From an uncultured Kangiella sp. (GTDB lineage Bacteria > Pseudomonadota > Gammaproteobacteria > Enterobacterales > Kangiellaceae): a stretch of 47,433 nucleotides of DNA. The notes beneath the pieces are model-generated. The model did no database searches. It saw only the letters and a list, made by a program, of their open reading frames with translations, and had not been told where the DNA came from. The stretch is taken from positions 1-47,433 of the forward strand of contig CATNCP010000023.1 in assembly GCA_950096615.1 (NCBI GenBank), written 5' to 3'. Both the position numbers and the translations under genes were made by a program. Below, in pieces: positions 6,849 to 16,369 of the stretch (position 1 is the stretch's first letter; the number at the start of each line of letters is the position of its first letter).

Positions 6849-7745
6849 ATGTCACATATTCTAATTACAGGCGGAACAGGTTTTATCGGTCGTAACCTCG
6901 TTCCTGTGCTGAAAGAACAAAACTTTGATATAACGGTGCTAACACGCTCGCCGGATAAGTACCGCGCCTACCCTACGTTTAACGGCGTGACCTTGACCAG
7001 CAGTTTGTCAGAAGTTGCGCCCGCAGACTTCGTTGTCAATTTAGCAGGTGCTAATTTATCAGCCAAACGTTGGAGCGATAGCTATAAACAAGAAATAGTC
7101 GAAAGCCGCTTAAATCTAACAGAAAACTTACTCGAGTGGATCAAAGGACAGTCTAAAAAACCTCATACCCTAATCAGTGGCTCTGCAATCGGTTATTATG
7201 GCGCACGAGGTAATGAGGAACTCGACGAAAGTTCTACTTCAGGAAGCGCCTCTGAGTTTCAAGTAAGGCTCTGTTCTCAATGGGAAGACGCAGCATATAA
7301 AGCAGAATCATTGGGTATTCGCGTATGCTGCATCAGAACTGGCGTGGTGTTAGGTAACGAAGGTGCACTGCAACAAATGCTCACGCCTTTTAAGTTTGGG
7401 CTAGGCGGAAAGCTCGGCAGTGGCAACCAATATTTTTCATGGATTCATATTGAAGACCATATACGAGCACTGATGTACTTGATCAATAATCACGATCTGT
7501 CAGGTTCGTTTAATTTAACAGCACCCCACCCTGTCACTAATGAACGACTAACGAAAGCACTCGGCAAGAAGCTTGGCAGGCCGACCTTTGCAACCATGCC
7601 TCCATTTGCGCTTAAAATCGTTGTTGGTGAAATGGCAAACATGCTTTTAACGGGACAAAGGGTATTCCCTAAAAAACTTGAAGAGAAAGGCTTCACCTTT
7701 GAGTATCCAACCATTGATGAAGCCTTAGAAGATTTAGTTGATTAG
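6849..7745 (+). CDS. YfcH-like NAD(P)-binding epimerase (TIGR01777 family)
   Basis: This 298-residue atypical short-chain dehydrogenase/epimerase starts with the dinucleotide-binding loop ITGGTGFIGRNLVP at residues 5-18. It has the family blocks VNLAGANLSAKRWSD, LISGSAIGYYG and FSWIHIEDHIRALMYLI, and the C-terminal FPKKLEEKGFTFEYPTIDEAL. Length matches the TIGR01777/YfcH family (about 297 residues). Its physiological substrate is unknown. It stands alone on the plus strand behind a palindromic putative operator. Its stop overlaps the stop of the convergent amidohydrolase gene by four bases, with no terminator visible between them. Confidence 0.85.
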   Translation: MSHILITGGTGFIGRNLVPVLKEQNFDITVLTRSPDKYRAYPTFNGVTLTSSLSEVAPADFVVNLAGANLSAKRWSDSYKQEIVESRLNLTENLLEWIKGQSKKPHTLISGSAIGYYGARGNEELDESSTSGSASEFQVRLCSQWEDAAYKAESLGIRVCCIRTGVVLGNEGALQQMLTPFKFGLGGKLGSGNQYFSWIHIEDHIRALMYLINNHDLSGSFNLTAPHPVTNERLTKALGKKLGRPTFATMPPFALKIVVGEMANMLLTGQRVFPKKLEEKGFTFEYPTIDEALEDLVD

Positions 7746-9292
7746 TCCGACTCTTTTGCTTGCTCAACTAACTTTTTTACATCTTCTCTAAGCTGCTTCG
7801 CATCGAAAACAATGCCGTCTTTAATGGTGTATTTTACACCACCCACATACTCAGCTTTGTTATCAAGGCCTAGTCTGTAATGACCCGTTCCGTATAAGAC
7901 TTTAAAGTTGGCAATCGGGTTTTCTTCAACAATCACTAAGTCGGCTAACTTACCAGCCTGAATCGTGCCAATTTTATCGTCCATGCCTAAAGCTTCTGCA
8001 CCATTGATCGTTGCTGATTGAACGACTTCCAGAGGATGGAAGCCTGCTTCTTGTAACAACTCTAACTCGCGAATAAACCCGAAACCGAATATTTTATAAA
8101 TATAGCCAGTATCCGAACCTGTGGTGACGCGTCCGCCGTGATTCTTAAAATCATGCAGGAAGCTCATCCAGATTCTGTAGTTATTTTTCCAGTCGATTTC
8201 GTTCTGCGTAGTCCAGTCGAAAAAGTAAGAACCGTGCGATTCACGATTTGGCTCGAAAAAGGCCTTAAGTTTTGGATGAGTGAACTCTTCGTGCCATGGT
8301 GCATTGCGCGCACGCATGACGTCACGACTCGCTTCGTAAATAGTCAGCGTTGGGTTTAGCGTAAAATCCAACTCAATCAGCTCATCGCGTACAGTGTTCC
8401 ACTTCTCTGAACCTTTCTTGGCGGCTTGTTGCCACAAACGACCCGCTTCAGTAAAGCGGTGTGATTCGTTGTTGTAGTTATACTCTAGTGGATAGTCCTG
8501 AATCACTTTATCGTTAAACAAAGCTTCTGGCAGACCATACCAGTGCTCCATAGAAGTTAGCCCTAAACGCGCAGAGTCTAAAGCGTTGGTCCCCACCACG
8601 TTTAATTGGGCATGATGCATCATAGTGCCTAAGCCTTGTTTATTGGCCTCATCAAGAGCAGCCCCCATCATCTGACGCGGCAAACCAAAAAACTTAATAC
8701 CTTTCGCCCCTTTGTCAGCAACATGACGTACCCAACGACGGGTCTCTTTCGGGGTGGTAATTTCCTTATCCCAGTCCATATTGAAGCCTACATAAGGCAC
8801 AATCCGTGGCGCAGTGATCTCATTATCGTCACTCAACTCTTGGTGTTTTAATGTCCAGTCTAGACCGTTAAAACTACCCGGTTCACGTACCGTCGTGATT
8901 CCGTGGCCTAGCCAGAGCTTAAACGGATACTCGGCAGGCAGCCCATCAACACTGCCTGCAATATGTCCGTGCATATCGACAAAACCTGGCATTACATAAT
9001 GCCCACTTATATCGATCACCTTATCGCCAGGCCCGGCCTTAGGACGACTCAATTCTTTAATCTTGACACCAGGAGCACCGACCGATCGTACCGAGACAAT
9101 TTTATTGTCTTCAATAATAATATCGACAGGGCCGAAGGGTGGCGCACCTTTGCCATCTATCACAATGCCGCCACGTAAAATCAATCGCTCAAATGGCCCC
9201 TCACCTTCAGCGCGTTCTGGTGCATCCAAAGTGCGTGCAGATAAAGTAAGGCTTAATACACAAGATAGTACGAATAATATATAACGAATCAT
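7742..9292 (-). CDS. Exported metal-dependent amidohydrolase (imidazolonepropionase/prolidase-like)
   Basis: This 516-residue protein begins with a signal peptide, MIRYILFVLSCVLSLTLSA, so it acts outside the cytosol. The amidohydrolase fold is shown by the metal motif DMHGH in PGFVDMHGHIA, a lysine in KGAKGIKFFG that may be the carbamylated bridging residue, the histidines of MMHHAQ and SMEHW, and the catalytic aspartate in TTGSDTGY. The C-terminal beta-sandwich block GTIQAGKLADLVIVEENP is typical. I chose the ATG at 9292, preceded by GGGGA; a TTG at 9322 would place ten residues before the signal peptide. Related enzymes hydrolyse dipeptides or cyclic amides. It lies 176 bases downstream of the borosin methyltransferase on the same strand, so co-transcription is possible but unproven. 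Confidence 0.85.
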   Translation of the reverse strand: MIRYILFVLSCVLSLTLSARTLDAPERAEGEGPFERLILRGGIVIDGKGAPPFGPVDIIIEDNKIVSVRSVGAPGVKIKELSRPKAGPGDKVIDISGHYVMPGFVDMHGHIAGSVDGLPAEYPFKLWLGHGITTVREPGSFNGLDWTLKHQELSDDNEITAPRIVPYVGFNMDWDKEITTPKETRRWVRHVADKGAKGIKFFGLPRQMMGAALDEANKQGLGTMMHHAQLNVVGTNALDSARLGLTSMEHWYGLPEALFNDKVIQDYPLEYNYNNESHRFTEAGRLWQQAAKKGSEKWNTVRDELIELDFTLNPTLTIYEASRDVMRARNAPWHEEFTHPKLKAFFEPNRESHGSYFFDWTTQNEIDWKNNYRIWMSFLHDFKNHGGRVTTGSDTGYIYKIFGFGFIRELELLQEAGFHPLEVVQSATINGAEALGMDDKIGTIQAGKLADLVIVEENPIANFKVLYGTGHYRLGLDNKAEYVGGVKYTIKDGIVFDAKQLREDVKKLVEQAKESD

Positions 9293-9468
9293 TTTAATAT
9301 CCCCAAACTTAGGTAGGGACAAGATGCACTATGTACCACAAATAATCAAGGCTCGAGAGAAGTCTAGCTAGGTCATCTTGATTTTTATGGAAAGCTACAA
9401 TAACAGACAGTGGCAACAGCCTTAAGCTGAAATAGCTAAACGAGGTATAGACCTGCTTGGCCTAACAC

Positions 9469-10266
9469 TTAGCCAAAATCGGTTATATCCAAACCGAACT
9501 CATCTAACGACTCTCGATCTAATTTCAGTCCAGTCAACGGTGGGATCACCAGCGTGGATATCGAGGATATGTCCATATCAGGCAAATCTTTAAGCACAAA
9601 CGTATCAATTCGAGGCTTTTGAACTGGTATAAAAGGAGCTTCATACAAGATCATTTCATGCTCAAGTGGGAACCATTTATTCAAAATACGCACAGTCGCC
9701 TGAAGGTTTTGCTCCGTTGTTTTAAACGTTTTTAGCGTATGCTCCCCTGCTAGACCGATCTGCCATAAAATCGTATAAGCGGCCGTATTAAGAGGCACAC
9801 CACTAAATAAAAACTGAGTCGCCTCATAGGCTTGGCAGCCTGTCGTACCAGGATCAAACCCAAGATCCGCGTAAAGACAAGCGTCGGCAGAAACCCCAGG
9901 CAGCATCTGAGCTGGGTAACCTTCTTCATTTAAGCGCTCAATGGCGAAATGTCCAACGCAAGCAAAAATTCCCGGGTGACCATAAAGCGCCAGTACGACC
10001 TTCTTGCCATCGCGCACAGCCTGACAGACCACTTCAGTCATGTCTTGATAGGTTTGTCGACGAGACTTCCCTTCGGCATATAGGTATTGCAGACTTTGAT
10101 AGGAAGGGTTTAAAGATTTCACCCAATCCTCTGAGAGCTTATCAGGCAAAATACCAAAGACACTTTCAGCCTCTTCAAGGTAGTGTTTTGACAATGTTGT
10201 AATCTGACCGGCTAGCGTAATTCCTGTGCCAATGCAGGTTAAAGAGCCTGTAGCGTTATTATTCAT
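9469..10266 (-). CDS. Split-borosin peptide alpha-N-methyltransferase (SonM-like)
   Basis: This 265-residue protein belongs to the tetrapyrrole-methylase (class III SAM) fold. It resembles, as I remember it, the borosin N-methyltransferase SonM of Shewanella, which methylates backbone amides of a separate precursor peptide. SAM-binding features are IGTGITLAGQ at 12-21, LYGHPGIFACVGH at 94-106 and PGVSADACLYADLGFDPG at 123-140. Tyr63, Arg69, Tyr73 and Tyr95 have exactly the spacing (6, 4, 22) of the catalytic Tyr66, Arg72, Tyr76 and Tyr98 of fungal OphMA. The C-terminal STLVIPP block is also SonM-like. Unlike fungal borosins it carries no fused core peptide. It is the last gene of a three-gene operon with the precursor at 12003-12221. 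No strong Shine-Dalgarno precedes the ATG. A porphyrin methylase role is unlikely given the precursor partner. Confidence 0.88.
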   Translation of the reverse strand: MNNNATGSLTCIGTGITLAGQITTLSKHYLEEAESVFGILPDKLSEDWVKSLNPSYQSLQYLYAEGKSRRQTYQDMTEVVCQAVRDGKKVVLALYGHPGIFACVGHFAIERLNEEGYPAQMLPGVSADACLYADLGFDPGTTGCQAYEATQFLFSGVPLNTAAYTILWQIGLAGEHTLKTFKTTEQNLQATVRILNKWFPLEHEMILYEAPFIPVQKPRIDTFVLKDLPDMDISSISTLVIPPLTGLKLDRESLDEFGLDITDFG

Positions 10267-10276
10267 TTAATGATTC

Positions 10277-11995
10277 TTAATATATCTGTGTTTGGTTTCT
10301 GCCATTTCTTTTAGCTTGATACATAGCGTTATCAGCTTCAATAATTAGCTCTTCTAAGGATTCACCGTTACTTTTCGCTGCAACTCCAAAGCTGGCAGTA
10401 ATTTTAAAGTCGTTAGGTAATTTTGCATGCTCTATATTTTTAAAGGCTTCAGCGCAGCGCTCAATAAATTTCTTAGCATCATCACTCGTGCATTGAGGTA
10501 AGATCACTATAAACTCTTCTCCTCCAAGTCGACCAAACACGTCAACTGGTCGTGTTCGCTCTTTCACGCAGTCACTGACTTTTTTCAATACCCAGTCGCC
10601 CATTGCATGTCCAAAACGGTCATTAACGGTTTTAAAATAGTCCAGGTCGAAAATAATGACACAATATTGGTTATTATCGATAAGACTATTGTGATGAACC
10701 TCATGAGCAAGTTTTAACGCATACCTACGATTTAATGTGTTTGTCAGCGCATCCGTTTGCGATAATCTTTGGTAGCGTTCTTTTTGTTTCTTAACCCGCC
10801 ACGACCATAAGCAAATCCCCACTAGCAAAATTAAAACTATCGCTAAGAGTAACTGAAAGTTTCTTTTCGACTGCTCTTTAACTTGACCGGTCAGTTCAAG
10901 CAGTTTGTTTTTCTGGTCTAAAATTTTAATTTGCGCGTTTTGGTCCAAATGCGCATACTTCACTTTTTGATAGGCTAAGTTTTTACTTCCTTGATCAGCA
11001 AGCATCTCATCTTGAATCTGAACAAGCTTTGATAGCGCTTTAAAAGCTTCAATAGAGTTACCGTTCTTTTCATAATACTTAGCCAACAACTCTGTCGCAT
11101 CCTTTCTATTCACCCCAGATTCTTGTATTTCAGTTTCTTGCAAAACTTCATCAATATATACTTTGGCCTTCTCCAGCTCCCCAGTCTCTAAAAAAACACG
11201 CGCCAAACCCAGTTTGATTTGTAGAACATCAGGGAGATAGCCGTTATCAGAGGATATATTTAGTGCTGTGATATAGGCCAGCTCAGACTTTTCTATTAAT
11301 CCATGATTCAAGTAATTTTGCGCTAGATTTTTATACAGATGAGCATCGATGACCAATAGATGTAAACCTTTACAGTAATCGATAACTTCTTTGAGTCGTT
11401 CCTCGTGATTAATACTGCTATCTTGGCTTAAAAAAACACTGGCTACTAATGCCTTTGCATAGCACTGATTTCGATTATCATTCATGGCAACAGCGATTTC
11501 GTTTGCCTTGTGAACGTACTCTAAAGCTTCATCGTAAGCTTCTAGCTCTACAAAAACATTAGCCGCAGCATAGTAAGAATTAAACTGTAAGGATTTATCT
11601 TCAATCTTTGGAGTTATTGACAGACCATCAAATAAGTAACTAAAAGCCTTCTGATATTCATTCAGGCCCATATAAATTTGAGACAGCAAAGAATAAGCAG
11701 CTAGCCTTGAGTCCTCGGACACATCCGTTAGCTGTAACAATAACCTTAAGGGTCTTTTTGCTTTCTGGCTTTCTGCTTTCAATATATAAAAGTACGATTC
11801 TTGAATATAGAACCGTGCTTTCTGCTCATCGCTTTCAAACTCATCCCACCGATTTTGCAAGTCCTGAATCAATTGAAATGCTTGGCTTGAGTCTCTTGTG
11901 TTGCTTTCCCTTAGTAGCTTTAAGTCCTGCTCTATCTCCGCACTTGCCGTGTCGCATACAAAAAGCAGGACCAGGATAAATACAAGCTTCTTCAC
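10277..11995 (-). CDS. TPR-containing membrane diguanylate cyclase (GGDEF)
   Basis: This 572-residue protein has a signal peptide (residues 1-19), a long periplasmic helical TPR-like region (about 20-340), a coiled coil (about 340-378), one membrane segment (380-398) and a cytosolic GGDEF domain (412-572). The active site GGEEF is at 491-495, and FDLDYFKTVND supplies the metal aspartate. RPVD at 482-485, five residues before GGEEF, is an intact inhibitory I-site, so it should make cyclic di-GMP with product feedback. It starts with GTG at 11995, seven bases after the borosin precursor stop, and ends ten bases before the methyltransferase start, so it is embedded in that operon. Its role there is unknown; the periplasmic TPR part could sense a peptide or envelope signal. 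Confidence 0.88.
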   Translation of the reverse strand: MKKLVFILVLLFVCDTASAEIEQDLKLLRESNTRDSSQAFQLIQDLQNRWDEFESDEQKARFYIQESYFYILKAESQKAKRPLRLLLQLTDVSEDSRLAAYSLLSQIYMGLNEYQKAFSYLFDGLSITPKIEDKSLQFNSYYAAANVFVELEAYDEALEYVHKANEIAVAMNDNRNQCYAKALVASVFLSQDSSINHEERLKEVIDYCKGLHLLVIDAHLYKNLAQNYLNHGLIEKSELAYITALNISSDNGYLPDVLQIKLGLARVFLETGELEKAKVYIDEVLQETEIQESGVNRKDATELLAKYYEKNGNSIEAFKALSKLVQIQDEMLADQGSKNLAYQKVKYAHLDQNAQIKILDQKNKLLELTGQVKEQSKRNFQLLLAIVLILLVGICLWSWRVKKQKERYQRLSQTDALTNTLNRRYALKLAHEVHHNSLIDNNQYCVIIFDLDYFKTVNDRFGHAMGDWVLKKVSDCVKERTRPVDVFGRLGGEEFIVILPQCTSDDAKKFIERCAEAFKNIEHAKLPNDFKITASFGVAAKSNGESLEELIIEADNAMYQAKRNGRNQTQIY

Positions 11996-12002
11996 AGGAT
12001 GA

Positions 12003-12221
12003 TTACAAGTTATGCTCTTTTACATTGTGAACAACAACAGGGTACTCTCCACCATCCCCAGCTAACTGCTTCAATTTTGCTATATCAGCATTTTGAACAG
12101 CATCAATCTCGTCATCATTTAAACCAGCAGCTTTCATCGTACCAACAGGTTCAGCTTTATAGTCTTCCAGTAGTTTAGCGTTAGTGCCTAGCTCGGTTAA
12201 GAACTTATTTAAAATTGACAT
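12003..12221 (-). CDS. Split-borosin precursor peptide (SonA-like)
   Basis: This 72-residue peptide is the likely substrate of the N-methyltransferase at 9469-10266. Residues 1-53 form a helical recognition domain with the pattern LGTNAKLLEDYKAEP...AAGLNDDEIDAV, which resembles the borosin-binding domain of SonA from Shewanella. After a flexible AGDGGE linker (54-59), the tail has YPVVVHNV (60-67), a beta-branched hydrophobic stretch like borosin cores, then KEHNL. I chose the ATG at 12221 because GGGGAA lies seven bases before it; the in-frame ATG at 12233 has no ribosome site. It is the first gene of the operon, so it should be made in excess of the enzymes. No protease gene is evident. Other small leader families such as Nif11 fit less well because no CxxC or GG cleavage site is present. 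Confidence 0.82.
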   Translation of the reverse strand: MSILNKFLTELGTNAKLLEDYKAEPVGTMKAAGLNDDEIDAVQNADIAKLKQLAGDGGEYPVVVHNVKEHNL

Positions 12222-12233
12222 TTTATTCCCCAT

Positions 12234-12658
12234 AACGGTTGTTTATTATTTGCGCAACCATAAATAGTACAGATTTCAACGCATTATGCTACTGTTTTTT
12301 TATGCAAGGGAATATAAAATGTACGGCATTACGCCCTTTAGCTTGCAAAATAATTAGTTCTCGCCACCGATTCCTATATTCTATAGCCGGGATAATTACC
12401 TGCTTTTGTAACGGATTGGACTTTAATTAAGCAGTGTGGGCTATTGCTCTTGAGACAAAAGTAGAGCTGGAAATCGAGGATGAGGACTAACGATGTACGA
12501 AGCCTCACAACATATCAGTCGTGAAGCGCCCCTTTTGAATTGAAACCAAAACTTATAAGAAAAAACCCGAGTTCGCTAACGCTTGTCGAGGCTACGCTTG
12601 CTATTGCAGTATTGATACCAATAAATAATTTAGGAGTCCAATAACAATTTCCGATAAA
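12234..12658. other. Gene-poor stretch upstream of the borosin operon
   Basis: These 425 bases should hold the borosin operon promoter on the minus strand, but no near-consensus -35/-10 pair stands out. On the plus strand a short frame at 12429-12488, ending in ELEIEDED before a stop, looks like the tail of a decayed gene, but no body can be read upstream. I see no hairpin with a T-tract. Confidence 0.4.
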
Positions 12659-12676
12659 TGTACTCTGACCCCATTA
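12659..12676 (-). repeat. Left inverted copy of an 18-base repeat (TAATGGGGTCAGAGTACA)
   Basis: The reverse complement of these 18 bases is identical to 13487-13504 and differs by one base from 13340-13357. The copies face each other across the unknown ORF at 12696-13301, as terminal inverted repeats would. Similar GGGGTCAGAGTA motifs are, as I recall, dispersed in proteobacterial genomes, sometimes beside Y1-type transposase genes. No transposase is present here. Confidence 0.75.
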
Positions 12677-12695
12677 GTTCTGCATTAGTTCTGCG

Positions 12696-13301
12696 CTAAC
12701 CTTCAGACTCAGGCTCTTTATCTATGATAACTATTTCTTGTAATAAGCGGTTGTCAATGGCGCCAGCTTTTAATTTGTTAGAAAATTGTTTACTCCCAAA
12801 CCCATACTCACTTTCTAATAAAATAATACTCTTAAATGATAAGCTCCCATCAGCTTTTTTTTCTTCAAAGGAGTGTATAGCAACTAGTTCCTGCTCAACA
12901 ATTAAAAGGTACCTAATGTTTCCCGTTTCTAAGTCCTCGACTCTTATTGCTCGAGATCGCCCGCTGTATTTTTTTATGAACTCTTTACCAGTTTTACTCC
13001 CACTAAAGTCAATAACAGGAACCTCATTAAATCGCTGCTTATTAAAATCCCAACTTTTAAAACTTTCCTTTAGGGGAAAAGCCAAGCCACCAAAGCCAGT
13101 AGAGCAAAACCATTCCATACTCTTACAATAAAGGATACCGCCTGTAACTGAATCACCCATAGTGCTGTTACCAGACTGGGAATAAAAGACAGGCTGTACA
13201 ATCACAACATCATCTTTAATTGCAATGTACTTATAAGTTACGTCTTCAGGAGAGAGAGATAAAGACAGCGTCATAAGTGTGAATAAAATGTTACTTATCA
13301 T
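12696..13301 (-). CDS. Unknown exported protein inside an inverted-repeat-bounded segment
   Basis: I do not recognise this 201-residue protein. It begins with a signal-peptide-like hydrophobic stretch, MISNILFTLMTLSLSLS, and contains two cysteines close together (LYCKSMEWFCSTG) that could form a disulfide. The rest is mixed and predicted soluble (FPLKESFKSWDFNKQRF, ESEYGFGSKQF), with an acidic end DKEPESEG. A good ribosome site, AGAGGAA, precedes the ATG at 13301, so it is probably translated. It is AT-rich and bounded on both sides by the 18-base repeat, which suggests acquisition as a unit. A direct repeat of ATTAGTTCTGC lies just after its stop (12673-12694). Confidence 0.6.
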   Translation of the reverse strand: MISNILFTLMTLSLSLSPEDVTYKYIAIKDDVVIVQPVFYSQSGNSTMGDSVTGGILYCKSMEWFCSTGFGGLAFPLKESFKSWDFNKQRFNEVPVIDFSGSKTGKEFIKKYSGRSRAIRVEDLETGNIRYLLIVEQELVAIHSFEEKKADGSLSFKSIILLESEYGFGSKQFSNKLKAGAIDNRLLQEIVIIDKEPESEG

Positions 13302-13340: not shown

Positions 13341-13630
13341 AATGGGGTCAGAGTATAATATACACTTATTGTCTGCTAAGAACTTCATAACTAAAAGAGC
13401 CGCAGTAAATGCGGTCCTTAAATATTTAAGTTTAAGCTTAACTTCTACTTCAACCTAAACCTTACTGCTAAGGTTGCTAATAGGAATAATGGGGTCAGAG
13501 TACAATATACACTTGTTGTCCGCTAAGAACTTCATAACTAAAAGAGCCGCAGTAAATGCGGCCCTTAAATATTTAAGTTTAAGCTTAACTTCTACTTCAA
13601 CCTAAACCTTACTGCTAAGGTTGCTAATAG
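13341..13630. repeat. Tandem duplication of a 147-bp unit covering the 3' end of the GlyGly-CTERM gene
   Basis: Bases 13341-13487 and 13488-13630 are near-identical copies with a few substitutions (for example T/C at 13356/13503 and at 13415/13562). Each copy has the GGGGTCAGAGTA motif, a CCGC-AGTAAAT-GCGG hairpin, the palindrome TTAAATATTTAA and the reverse complement of the last codons of the large gene (ATLAVRFRLK plus stop). Only the second copy is joined to the gene; the first is an orphan tail. The motif at each copy's start suggests the duplication arose from the mobile or recombinogenic repeat. Confidence 0.88.
13538..13562 (-). terminator. Rho-independent terminator of the GlyGly-CTERM gene
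   Basis: On the minus strand GCCGC-ATTTACT-GCGGC is followed by TCTTTTAG, about 30 bases after the stop at 13592. The duplicated copy at 13391-13415 has a weaker stem, because its last pair is G-T instead of G-C, and would form a second stop signal. Confidence 0.7.
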
Positions 13631-16369
13631 TAATGACAGTAACCACCAGTCATTCGAACCACCGCCACCACCTGATGATGCTGAGTTAACCGTTATCTGA
13701 ACACTTGCTGTCGCAGAAGCATCATAAGGATCTGTGACGGTATATTGAAAACTGTCACTACCTGTAAAGCCTGCGTTTGGCGTGTATGTGAAGCTAGTGC
13801 CTGAGACGGTTAAGCTACCACTTGCTGGACTTGTGTTCTCAAACGCAAGTTCATCGCCATCTGGATCAGTAGCATTAAATGAACCTGAGACAGCTGTATC
13901 TATATCAGTGCTTAAGGTCACTGTATTAGCTATCGGTGTATTGTTAACAACAGTGATCATGACTATCGCAGAAGATTCAGCGCCGCTTGGATCTTTCGCA
14001 GTGTACTCAAAGCTATCTTCACCGCTAAAGCCGGAATCAGGCGTATAAGTGAAGCTGTCACCAGAAACTTCTAAACTTCCGTTAGCTGGAGCTGTATGCT
14101 CATAAGTGAGCTCATCACCATCCACGTCTGTCGCATCAAAGTTACCTGAAGTCTCTGTTTCAGTATTTGTAGAAAGGCTGACGTCATTAGTCACAGGGGC
14201 ATCGTTTACAGGGTTAACCGTTATAGTTACTATAGCTTCTGACTTCCCACCATGTACGTCTTCTACTGAAAAAGTAAATGAATCTTCGCCATAAAAGTTT
14301 AACTCTGGCTCATAAGTAAACTGTCCGTTGGCATCGATGGTAACTGTACCGTTATTAGCTTCAGTTACAATTTCAAAAGAAATATCATCACCTTCAGGAT
14401 CCGTAGCACTTACAGACTCTTCCAGAGAACTGTCTTCATCAATAGTGAACTCTGTGTCTGAGACAACTGGGTACAAATTATATTGATATAATCTCAGCTC
14501 GTTCTCAAAGCGGACAGCACCAGCAATATCTGAGCCATTAAATCCTAAACTTGATAATTCCGGCACCCCGTCTAACTGACTAATGACAGAAATATTAGCA
14601 GCGTCAGAGATATCAACGACCAACAACCCATTAGTTGAGCTCATCAAAATCGTGTCTGAATCGATTTCAGTAGCGGCCGTAACTATACCTAAACTTGGAA
14701 TCTGACCAATATAGCTCGCTGAAGACAAATCTGATATGTCAATTAAAGCTACACCGTACTGGCTTGCTGAGATCGCAGTATCGCCAGATACAAAAAGCTT
14801 TGCTTCTGTCGTGTCTGAAAGGTTTGGTACCGTTATGATCACAGGATTTGCTGTATCAGAAAAATCGATAGCTAATAACTCATCATCAAGGCTAGAAGCT
14901 AATACATAGTCACCATACGGAGTTATTTCGGTAATGTATTGCTTAGAACCTGACTCTGCCAGTGGAAGGTTTACTGATGAGGTTAATGCTTGAACATCAC
15001 TAGTTACATCATATAGAGCAATTGTCCCGTCATTAGTACCAACGTATAAAGTATCTTCTTTTTCTTTAATGAAAGAAATAAACCCATTAGCACTTGGTGT
15101 TTTGCTATCAAGGAAGGAGCTAGGGTTTAGTGTTGTAAAGTCATAAGTTTCAAGGTTTTTCTCAACGCCCAGCCAGCCAATATTATTTTTTATCTCACCA
15201 GCTTGAGTATTAATCCCAGCAGGAGTAGGCATTCGGCTTTTTGGTGTAAATGAATTATCAGCTTCAATATCAACAATATGAAACAAGCCTGTTTCATCAG
15301 ATATTAACAGTCTGTTGTCACTTAGACTTAAATCCTCAGGGATCATAGATTGTGAGTAATTTCCAAGTGGATCCATATGTGGCATTGCAGTAGCTGATAT
15401 ATCTAATGTACGTAAGCCATCAATACCATAAGCAACATACATAACATCTGCACTATTCGCGAAACCATATACTTCGTGCGTGCCTGCTCTAACGTCTCCT
15501 TCAAATGACGGTGAGTTTGGTGTGCTTATATCGAACTGGAAAATTCGACCGTTAAACTTACCTGCATAAAGGTTATCGTCAATGATATGGAGTGTTTTCA
15601 ACACATCTATCGGCTCAATGAAAGAGCCTGAATTTATGATCGATACGAAAGAGGGATTATTTATATCTGCAATATCATAGACGTGTAATCCATCACCCGC
15701 ACCGATATAGAGCGTATCGCCAGCAATTTCGCTATCGTAAAAGATCGTACTGGAAGCTTCCGCTAAGGTTGTTAGTTCGACAATCGAGCTCTCATCCGCA
15801 ATATCAAAAGCTCTTACCTTGTTAAAGTCGCTAACTAAGTATAAGTAATTGCCATTTTTTTTAAGCTCTGAAACATTACCTAAAGAACCGAAGGTTTGGG
15901 TATTAATGTTTTGAAGGTTAGACAAATCTGTCGCATTAAAAACAGTAATATCACTGTTTCCTCCAACCATATAAAATCGATTTCCATCGAGCTTCACACT
16001 ATTAACGGCATAACCTGAAGAATCATGAGTTCCAATTAACGCAGGAGCTGAGCTATCCGAAAGATCGAAAAAGTGCACTGCAAAAGCACATCGAACAACC
16101 AAGGTACTTCCATCCAACTCCAAGTCTGTAGAATCACAGCCGATCTCAAGTTCTTCAATCAAGGTAACATTTGAACTATCCAAAACATCCAAAACAACCA
16201 AGTCTTCATTACTATCTACAGCGTAGGCCACATTATTATAATATGCCACATCATAGAAAGGCCCCATTCCGTAAGAAGACTCTAAATCAATTAAAGTTCC
16301 AGGTTGGGCTTGACTAGTTACTGAAGTTAAAGATAAGGCGCAAGCAAACGTTGCTATCAATTTTTTCAT
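13592..16369 (-). CDS. Surface protein: LVIVD-type propeller, cadherin-like repeats, GlyGly-CTERM anchor
   Basis: This 925-residue secreted protein has a signal peptide (MKKLIATFACALSLTSVTSQA). A long region (about 25-630) of repeated units with patterns like LVVLDVLDSSN, VYDIADINNPSFV and LLVVDISDAANIS is typical of LVIVD-type beta-propellers. It is followed by three tandem cadherin/tandem-95-like repeats (about 634-720, 724-808, 812-895), each with DxDGDE-type calcium motifs and an SFTYTPNAGFTGSDSFQYT-like strand pair. The C-terminus has GGGGG at 900-904, a hydrophobic helix and the basic end RFRLK, a classic GlyGly-CTERM tail processed by rhombosortase and usually tied to type II secretion. 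No rhombosortase gene is in the window. AGGAA precedes the ATG. Ligand and role are unknown; adhesion is plausible. Confidence 0.85.
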   Translation of the reverse strand: MKKLIATFACALSLTSVTSQAQPGTLIDLESSYGMGPFYDVAYYNNVAYAVDSNEDLVVLDVLDSSNVTLIEELEIGCDSTDLELDGSTLVVRCAFAVHFFDLSDSSAPALIGTHDSSGYAVNSVKLDGNRFYMVGGNSDITVFNATDLSNLQNINTQTFGSLGNVSELKKNGNYLYLVSDFNKVRAFDIADESSIVELTTLAEASSTIFYDSEIAGDTLYIGAGDGLHVYDIADINNPSFVSIINSGSFIEPIDVLKTLHIIDDNLYAGKFNGRIFQFDISTPNSPSFEGDVRAGTHEVYGFANSADVMYVAYGIDGLRTLDISATAMPHMDPLGNYSQSMIPEDLSLSDNRLLISDETGLFHIVDIEADNSFTPKSRMPTPAGINTQAGEIKNNIGWLGVEKNLETYDFTTLNPSSFLDSKTPSANGFISFIKEKEDTLYVGTNDGTIALYDVTSDVQALTSSVNLPLAESGSKQYITEITPYGDYVLASSLDDELLAIDFSDTANPVIITVPNLSDTTEAKLFVSGDTAISASQYGVALIDISDLSSASYIGQIPSLGIVTAATEIDSDTILMSSTNGLLVVDISDAANISVISQLDGVPELSSLGFNGSDIAGAVRFENELRLYQYNLYPVVSDTEFTIDEDSSLEESVSATDPEGDDISFEIVTEANNGTVTIDANGQFTYEPELNFYGEDSFTFSVEDVHGGKSEAIVTITVNPVNDAPVTNDVSLSTNTETETSGNFDATDVDGDELTYEHTAPANGSLEVSGDSFTYTPDSGFSGEDSFEYTAKDPSGAESSAIVMITVVNNTPIANTVTLSTDIDTAVSGSFNATDPDGDELAFENTSPASGSLTVSGTSFTYTPNAGFTGSDSFQYTVTDPYDASATASVQITVNSASSGGGGGSNDWWLLSLLLATLAVRFRLK

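Follow-up and report, generated by a model that had tools for sequence, protein, structure and literature searches.

The window analysed here, a 47,433-nucleotide stretch of DNA from an uncultured Kangiella sp. (contig CATNCP010000023.1), carries what, judged by its sequence, is an operon for a type IV split borosin with a sensor gene at its centre. Three minus-strand genes lie head to tail at positions 9469-12221 and encode a 72-residue precursor, a 572-residue TPR-GGDEF (TPR, tetratricopeptide repeat) protein and a 265-residue methyltransferase, with 7 nt between the first and second genes and 10 nt between the second and third. The methyltransferase and precursor are separate chains made from separate genes, and a TPR sensor gene is a near-constant partner of such SonM-like enzymes, probably encoding a receptor. 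Close relatives so often keep such sensors beside borosin genes that the peptide may be a signal, and we give an even chance to the reading that the cassette couples a split borosin to its own receptor, with the methylated peptide as the ligand of a membrane protein that controls cyclic di-GMP (c-di-GMP).

A split borosin operon

The operon contains the following features.

12003-12221, minus: borosin precursor, SonA-like, 72 residues (phmmer to SonA; precursor profile)
12060-12221, minus: precursor leader, residues 1-54, counterpart of the SonA borosin binding domain (alignment to SonA)
12006-12047, minus: putative core and tail EYPVVVHNVKEHNL, residues 59-72 (alignment to SonA)
10277-11995, minus: TPR-GGDEF membrane sensor, 572 residues, GTG start (Pfam, AlphaFold2 model)
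11939-11995, minus: signal-peptide-like N terminus, residues 1-19 (by eye and hydropathy, which peaks at 2.13 within residues 1-60)
11057-11938, minus: TPR solenoid of about eight helical hairpins, predicted periplasmic (model of residues 20-345)
11462-11464, minus: Cys178, TPR domain (alignment of partners)
11372-11374, minus: Cys208, TPR domain (alignment of partners)
10805-10858, minus: transmembrane segment, residues 380-397 (hydropathy maximum 3.04 ahead of GGDEF; helix in model)
10292-10759, minus: GGDEF diguanylate cyclase domain, residues 413-568 (Pfam)
9469-10266, minus: backbone N-methyltransferase, SonM-like, 265 residues, with Y63, R69, Y73 and Y95 (SonM match)
9479-9497, minus: weak terminator-like hairpin at the end of the methyltransferase gene (3 such sites in the region against 2.7 expected)

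A split borosin operon of three genes had been proposed at this place in an earlier note made from the sequence alone, and the coordinates, the gaps and the homology to both SonM and SonA confirm it far beyond chance. The alignments that the note had called for gave E = 4.8e-84 for the enzyme (phmmer against PDB), over residues 7-265 and so nearly the whole length, and E = 7.6e-14 for the precursor (best entry 8t1s), with the leader homologous to the borosin binding domain. OphMA-type fungal enzymes also match the window enzyme, at E = 2.8e-44 to 1.3e-42, and the Pfam family TP_methylase is found in it. The four residues singled out in the note, Y63, R69, Y73 and Y95, are all invariant in 17 aligned Kangiella enzymes, and the first three align with Y58, R67 and Y71 of SonM, for which mutant kinetics and a mechanism are reported in PMC8429565. 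Homology, catalytic residues and gene order thus uphold, as type IV, the assignment to split borosins that underlay the further proposal of an N-methylated product; the methylation itself is a prediction from these homologies.

The precursor has a hydrophobic core, EYPVVVHNV, near its C terminus. P61 of this core has no backbone NH. The PVVV stretch aligns with the part of SonA that holds L63 and I65, both methylated by SonM (PMC8429565), and on this alignment V62-V64 are the likely methylation sites. An in-frame ATG lies 12 nt upstream of the precursor start and would give a protein of 76 residues; a GGGG sequence is present just ahead of the 72-residue start. In five close Kangiella species, 16 of the 18 columns that hold the core of the window-type precursor (columns 55-72) are identical, compared with 37 of 54 in the leader, with synonymous codons differing in core and leader alike. 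From these alignments, the window-type core is under purifying selection. With a precursor profile, a relative was found in 134 of 146 loci.

The product class had been described as known from few organisms, and this does not hold for the genes. At least one SonM-like enzyme is present in each of the 20 Kangiella genomes searched, and a strong match occurs in 47 of 197 genomes of the order, at 71 loci after 22 of 93 enzyme matches, all below 26 bits, were dropped. An even sample of the phylum gave 18 loci in 15 of 398 genomes. Among the named relatives listed, K. taiwanensis is the closest, with 92% identity in the methyltransferase. The window genome itself has a second borosin locus, absent from the earlier note, on another contig (C20): locus L031 (5124-8334) lies between gcvP and syd, encodes a precursor, an enzyme 46% identical to that of the window and two TPR-only proteins, and has no GGDEF gene.

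Small proteins are also encoded beside borosin enzymes in some Kangiella (L040 6711-7235 and 9156-9695, L043 2286-2822). The first is a GNAT acetyltransferase by Pfam and the other two are similar by eye; further modification of the peptide by such proteins is possible.

Sensor genes accompany SonM-like enzymes

The middle gene had been named in the earlier note without being assigned a role. Its product matches Pfam GGDEF at E = 6.2e-40 and TPR families weakly, and has an intact GGEEF motif (10511-10525) and an RxxD motif (R482-D485), as in diguanylate cyclases. To define partners elsewhere, a same-strand GGDEF protein was sought within 2.5 kb of the enzyme. Enzymes identical in their last 150 residues were counted once, and matches shorter than 150 residues or below 100 bits were dropped, which left 152 distinct SonM-like loci. 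These are neither random nor independent, because the window enzyme was the query by which they were collected. GGDEF partners occur at 109 of them, histidine kinases at 14 and TPR-only partners at 18; no partner was called at 7, nor at another 4 that are at a contig edge. At two of the seven, L055 and L145, Pfam does recognise a TPR protein, and in L040-L042 the enzyme is the first of a tandem pair, the second of which has a sensor. The TPR-only class consists of 16 loci at the Kangiella gcvP-syd site, L104, in which the sensor is split, and L183, which runs to a contig end. For L127 the kinase first recorded is the upstream one, and the likely partner is at 10063-12918. When ten partners were checked with Pfam, TPR families were found in all ten (weakly in L055) and HisKA plus HATPase in eight; two further kinase partners have no TPR family at E 0.001, and both match the window TPR weakly. 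A hydrophobic segment precedes the GGDEF domain in all 109 nearest GGDEF partners, and, at the cut-off used, 95 of these have a second such segment at the N terminus.

Close to the enzymes, GGDEF domains are at about six times the density seen in the same loci at a distance, with 119 in 879 kb (less than 3 kb away) and 22 in 982 kb (more than 4.5 kb away), domains near two enzymes being counted twice; the window genome has 16 in 2.57 Mb. A sensor adjoins the enzyme in 17 of the 18 loci of the phylum sample, the exception being L241, with the L115 sensor on the other strand and L240 counted by a kinase match. An additional sample of the class gave 11 loci in 10 of 369 genomes, and all five that score at least 298.7 bits have a sensor. 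Linkage also holds in the reverse direction. A profile of the TPR domain gave 126 hits in the 197 genomes of the order, and the fraction within 7 kb of an enzyme gene was 52/53 at 200 bits or more, 21/30 at 150-200, 2/8 at 100-150, 2/11 at 80-100 and 5/24 below 80. At 100 bits or more, 75 of 91 hits are near an enzyme, and 66 of the 71 enzyme loci have a hit. A chance neighbourhood was rejected on the near and far GGDEF densities and on linkage tested in both directions.

Two loci have unusual sensor genes. In L104, the sensor occupies two frames, a 413-residue TPR part and a 154-residue GGDEF part, and the gene is apparently broken. In L245, a kinase and a GGDEF protein, both matching the window TPR, lie beside one enzyme and a precursor-like peptide.

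Cysteine pair, fold and exchange of outputs

When 46 TPR-GGDEF partners were aligned, only two positions of the TPR domain, C178 and C208, were the same in all 46. Both cysteines are present in 118 of 122 GGDEF partners and in 24 of 25 TPR-only partners. Away from enzymes, the order contains 44 profile hits, and the pair occurs in 15 of the 16 that score 100 bits or more and in 3 of the 28 below (0/20 in a first set of these controls and 3/8 in the rest), a contrast by which the pair marks one TPR sensor subfamily, although profile score and cysteine signature are not independent as the profile contains the cysteine columns. In the model, C178 is near the start of helix 174-191 and C208 ends helix 198-208, so that both are at the same end of one hairpin and a disulfide across the hairpin is likely. 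Such disulfide-compatible cysteines would fit a periplasmic location of the TPR domain.

The AlphaFold2 model of the full-length sensor has a mean predicted local distance difference test score (pLDDT) of 90.4 and a predicted template modelling score (pTM) of 0.62, and places the transmembrane segment inside one helix of about 100 residues (314-413). As the best 50 PDB matches of this whole model were GGDEF structures, the TPR part (residues 20-345) was folded alone (pLDDT 94.6, pTM 0.88). Foldseek ranked first a phage Rap receptor in complex with its pheromone (E = 3.2e-8, template modelling score about 0.6); most of the best 50 matches are further Rap structures, NprR and LGN, a peptide binder of eukaryotes. 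As TPR folds are alike and the comparison covers this TPR domain alone, this likeness is support, not proof. A sequence profile of the TPR domain also matched a Rap protein and AimR among many TPR proteins; designed TPRs, LGN and kinesin light chain ranked above them.

In an enzyme tree built by a quick method (161 rows), the four partner labels need 15 changes, compared with 47.9 in shuffles, a clustering that near-copies favour. This tree omits L067, which is shorter than 200 residues, L237, which shares its record with L176, and L241; the TPR label of L055 and L145 was assigned manually. Two loci with kinase outputs, L125 and L136, are nested among GGDEF loci and retain the cysteine-pair TPR, and the TPR-only Kangiella group is likewise nested inside the GGDEF part of the tree; in the other kinase partners, the TPRs lack the pair. 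In the GGDEF part of the enzyme tree, the constant partner is the TPR domain and not the output.

At the gcvP-syd site, surveyed in 19 of the 20 Kangiella genomes (all but G014), a precursor, an enzyme and one to four TPR genes are present in 15 loci (16 with L047, which is cut by a contig end). Three further genomes (L283, L285 and L286) keep a TPR gene at this site with no enzyme or precursor matched there, and each has two other borosin enzymes elsewhere. The site looks like a variable cassette site. In other genera, the orphan TPR sensors are found among unrelated genes. Cysteine-pair TPR-GGDEF genes with no borosin enzyme nearby have two recurrent settings, beside transporter-like genes (L284, L287, L288 and L290), or in tandem or singly near a recurring gene of 312-322 residues (L289 and L291-L293).

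The peptide as proposed ligand of the sensor

In the mechanism that we propose, the methyltransferase would bind the helical leader of the precursor and N-methylate two or three core valines, most likely among V62-V64. The trimmed peptide, from the same cell or from neighbours, would reach the periplasm and dock in the groove of the TPR solenoid in the middle protein. This would then alter the long transmembrane helix and switch the cytoplasmic GGDEF domain, and the resulting change in c-di-GMP would probably change attachment or motility. We infer the methylation, the processing, the export, the binding and the direction of the cyclase response from the homologies, the conserved residues, the linkage across lineages, the domain layout, the cysteine pair and the likeness of the TPR fold, all of which are observed. 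General cell proteases and transporters, or membrane permeability conferred by N-methylation, could supply the processing and export.

Several observations weigh against the peptide being the ligand. The cassette has no exporter or protease gene, and its flanks vary between species while the three genes stay. In the class sample, no sensor was matched in the six more distant enzyme loci, at or below 262.7 bits, so that the sensor link is a feature of SonM-like borosins, not of borosins in general, and none was matched in L241 of the phylum sample. The cysteine pair is present in only 2 of 15 kinase partners and missing in the other 13, and same-family sensors also occur with no enzyme nearby (16 of the 91 hits that reach 100 bits, 15 of which have the pair). 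Because enzyme neighbours supplied the sequences of the profile, there is some circularity in both the reverse linkage test and the comparison of cysteines. Rap, NprR and LGN match the TPR model at similar Foldseek scores. At the second Kangiella locus, 14 of 19 core columns are identical, compared with 44 of 54 in the leader, and that core is thus not specially conserved. Co-variation, evaluated in the 73 loci that have a single precursor and a single GGDEF sensor, hardly separates the two sensor domains when core distances beyond those of the enzyme are used (partial rank correlation 0.32 for TPR and 0.27 for GGDEF). With the whole precursor, the values are 0.21 for TPR (p = 0.0005, the least possible with 2000 permutations) and 0.04 for GGDEF (p = 0.20). 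As evidence that the core co-varies with the TPR domain, this mirror-tree comparison is weak and not decisive.

Of the alternatives, the one that survives best, although we consider it unlikely, is that the cyclase senses a periplasmic cue other than the peptide and controls the making or release of the borosin through c-di-GMP, the peptide being an ordinary secreted product. A GGDEF partner with an intact motif in the same operon is consistent with this, as is the precedent of RcbB from Vibrio vulnificus, in which, according to the available text of PMC12282931, the cyclase is held back by the TPR domain until a protein partner lifts this repression. Against it, outputs are swapped while the TPR domain stays, and where the output has been lost, at the gcvP-syd site, the TPR domain is kept and multiplied, with one to four TPR-only copies. 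Also against it, an Rfam scan of the window and L031 gave no family at gathering score and thus no known c-di-GMP riboswitch.

The tandem TPR-only proteins, with their variable copy number and their presence in three genomes at the same site without enzyme and precursor, would also be expected if the borosin were an antimicrobial and the TPR proteins conferred immunity or sequestered it, the GGDEF and kinase forms adding a sensing arm. The rapid divergence of the TPR domain points the same way, mean identity being 20%, the lowest of the three, compared with 42% for GGDEF and 51% for the enzyme. We nevertheless hold this to be quite improbable, as the core in the five close species is conserved and not diversified (although the figure at the second locus is 14 of 19 columns), and as the partners in 123 of the 152 loci carry signalling outputs.

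TPR proteins commonly hold protein partners, and a sensor is nearly always present, so that the TPR protein could instead aid maturation or export, for example as a periplasmic holder of the methylated precursor, with the cyclase secondary. A helper in biosynthesis is not expected to be kept where enzyme and precursor are missing from beside it, as TPR genes are, whereas a receptor or an immunity protein might stay; we regard this role as very unlikely. A reading of the enzyme as an ordinary tetrapyrrole methylase with an unrelated small protein beside it, as the shared TP_methylase family could suggest, was rejected with near certainty because the match to SonM is far stronger than that to 2ybo, the sole other PDB methyltransferase listed (E = 7.5e-4), and the precursor matches SonA.

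If the reading of the methylated peptide as the receptor's ligand is extended to the family, SonM-type borosins of bacteria would be primarily signals rather than antibiotics, with an N-methylated peptide and a periplasmic cysteine-pair TPR receptor forming a widespread and previously unrecognised Gram-negative system; we rate this at somewhat under an even chance. The same tentative weight attaches to the outputs being exchangeable (diguanylate cyclase, histidine kinase or none) and to the system being a membrane-bound counterpart of Rap/NprR. A backbone-methylated ribosomal peptide would then be a new sort of signal feeding c-di-GMP, and a pairing of peptide and TPR receptor, if real, would open the role of these peptides to direct test in Shewanella.

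Relation to known systems

A bacterial borosin natural product was reportedly described in a 2023 paper in RSC Chem. Biol. In Shewanella oneidensis, SonM and SonA are likewise a separate methyltransferase and leader-core precursor with the same catalytic residues (PMC8429565). The available text of that paper gives no function for the sonMA cluster, names no GGDEF protein and states that no type IV borosin pathway had a known final product in 2021. Four named Shewanella loci (L158, L163, L211 and L215), which are from relatives of MR-1 and are not the MR-1 cluster, also have a TPR-GGDEF gene, located downstream of the enzyme at a distance of 316-914 nt, whereas in the window the sensor gene is between precursor and enzyme; the window core also differs from that of SonA.

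In RRNPP systems, which include Rap and NprR, the peptide gene adjoins the receptor gene. Their TPR solenoid resembles that of the window sensor, and they are among its top PDB matches. The receptors described in PMC9765709 are cytoplasmic and from Firmicutes, and the window sensor is not of this type, having a signal-peptide-like N terminus, a membrane helix and a cyclase. The layout of RcbB, with an N-terminal TPR region controlling a C-terminal GGDEF domain, is that of the window sensor, but its partner is a second TPR protein, RcbA, and a methyltransferase is nowhere mentioned in the available text of PMC12282931.

In the literature searched, coverage of which is incomplete so that earlier notice is possible, we found nothing that joins borosins with diguanylate cyclases, one review that joins them with histidine kinases, and no stated role, signalling or other, for SonM-type peptides. 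A GGDEF domain is explained in the legend to Figure 1 of PMC11395268, which depicts borosin architectures, and in the available text of that paper appears there alone, with no role discussed; the label suggests some earlier notice of the link. Given this legend and the incomplete coverage, we do not claim discovery of the gene neighbourhood. What is new here is a member with the sensor-coupled layout and a testable signalling hypothesis.

Other genes and distant loci

The amidohydrolase gene downstream of the operon (7742-9322) was considered as an operon member and rejected, as it is kept beside the cassette in L032-L035 but absent from the stretch covered around it in L036-L039. A promoter scan found 3 sites against 8.0 expected, with none on the operon strand, and is uninformative. 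Three further loci have other arrangements. In L241 (6839-10363, minus strand), the enzyme domain is within a reading frame of 1174 residues, perhaps a fused borosin, and in L247 and L248 distant borosin-like enzymes adjoin probable membrane proteins (by eye), with no TPR sensor matched. Upstream of the cassette, both in the window (13592-16369, minus strand) and in L034, is a gene for a protein, of 925 residues in the window, with tandem-95/VCBS repeats and weak adhesin matches.

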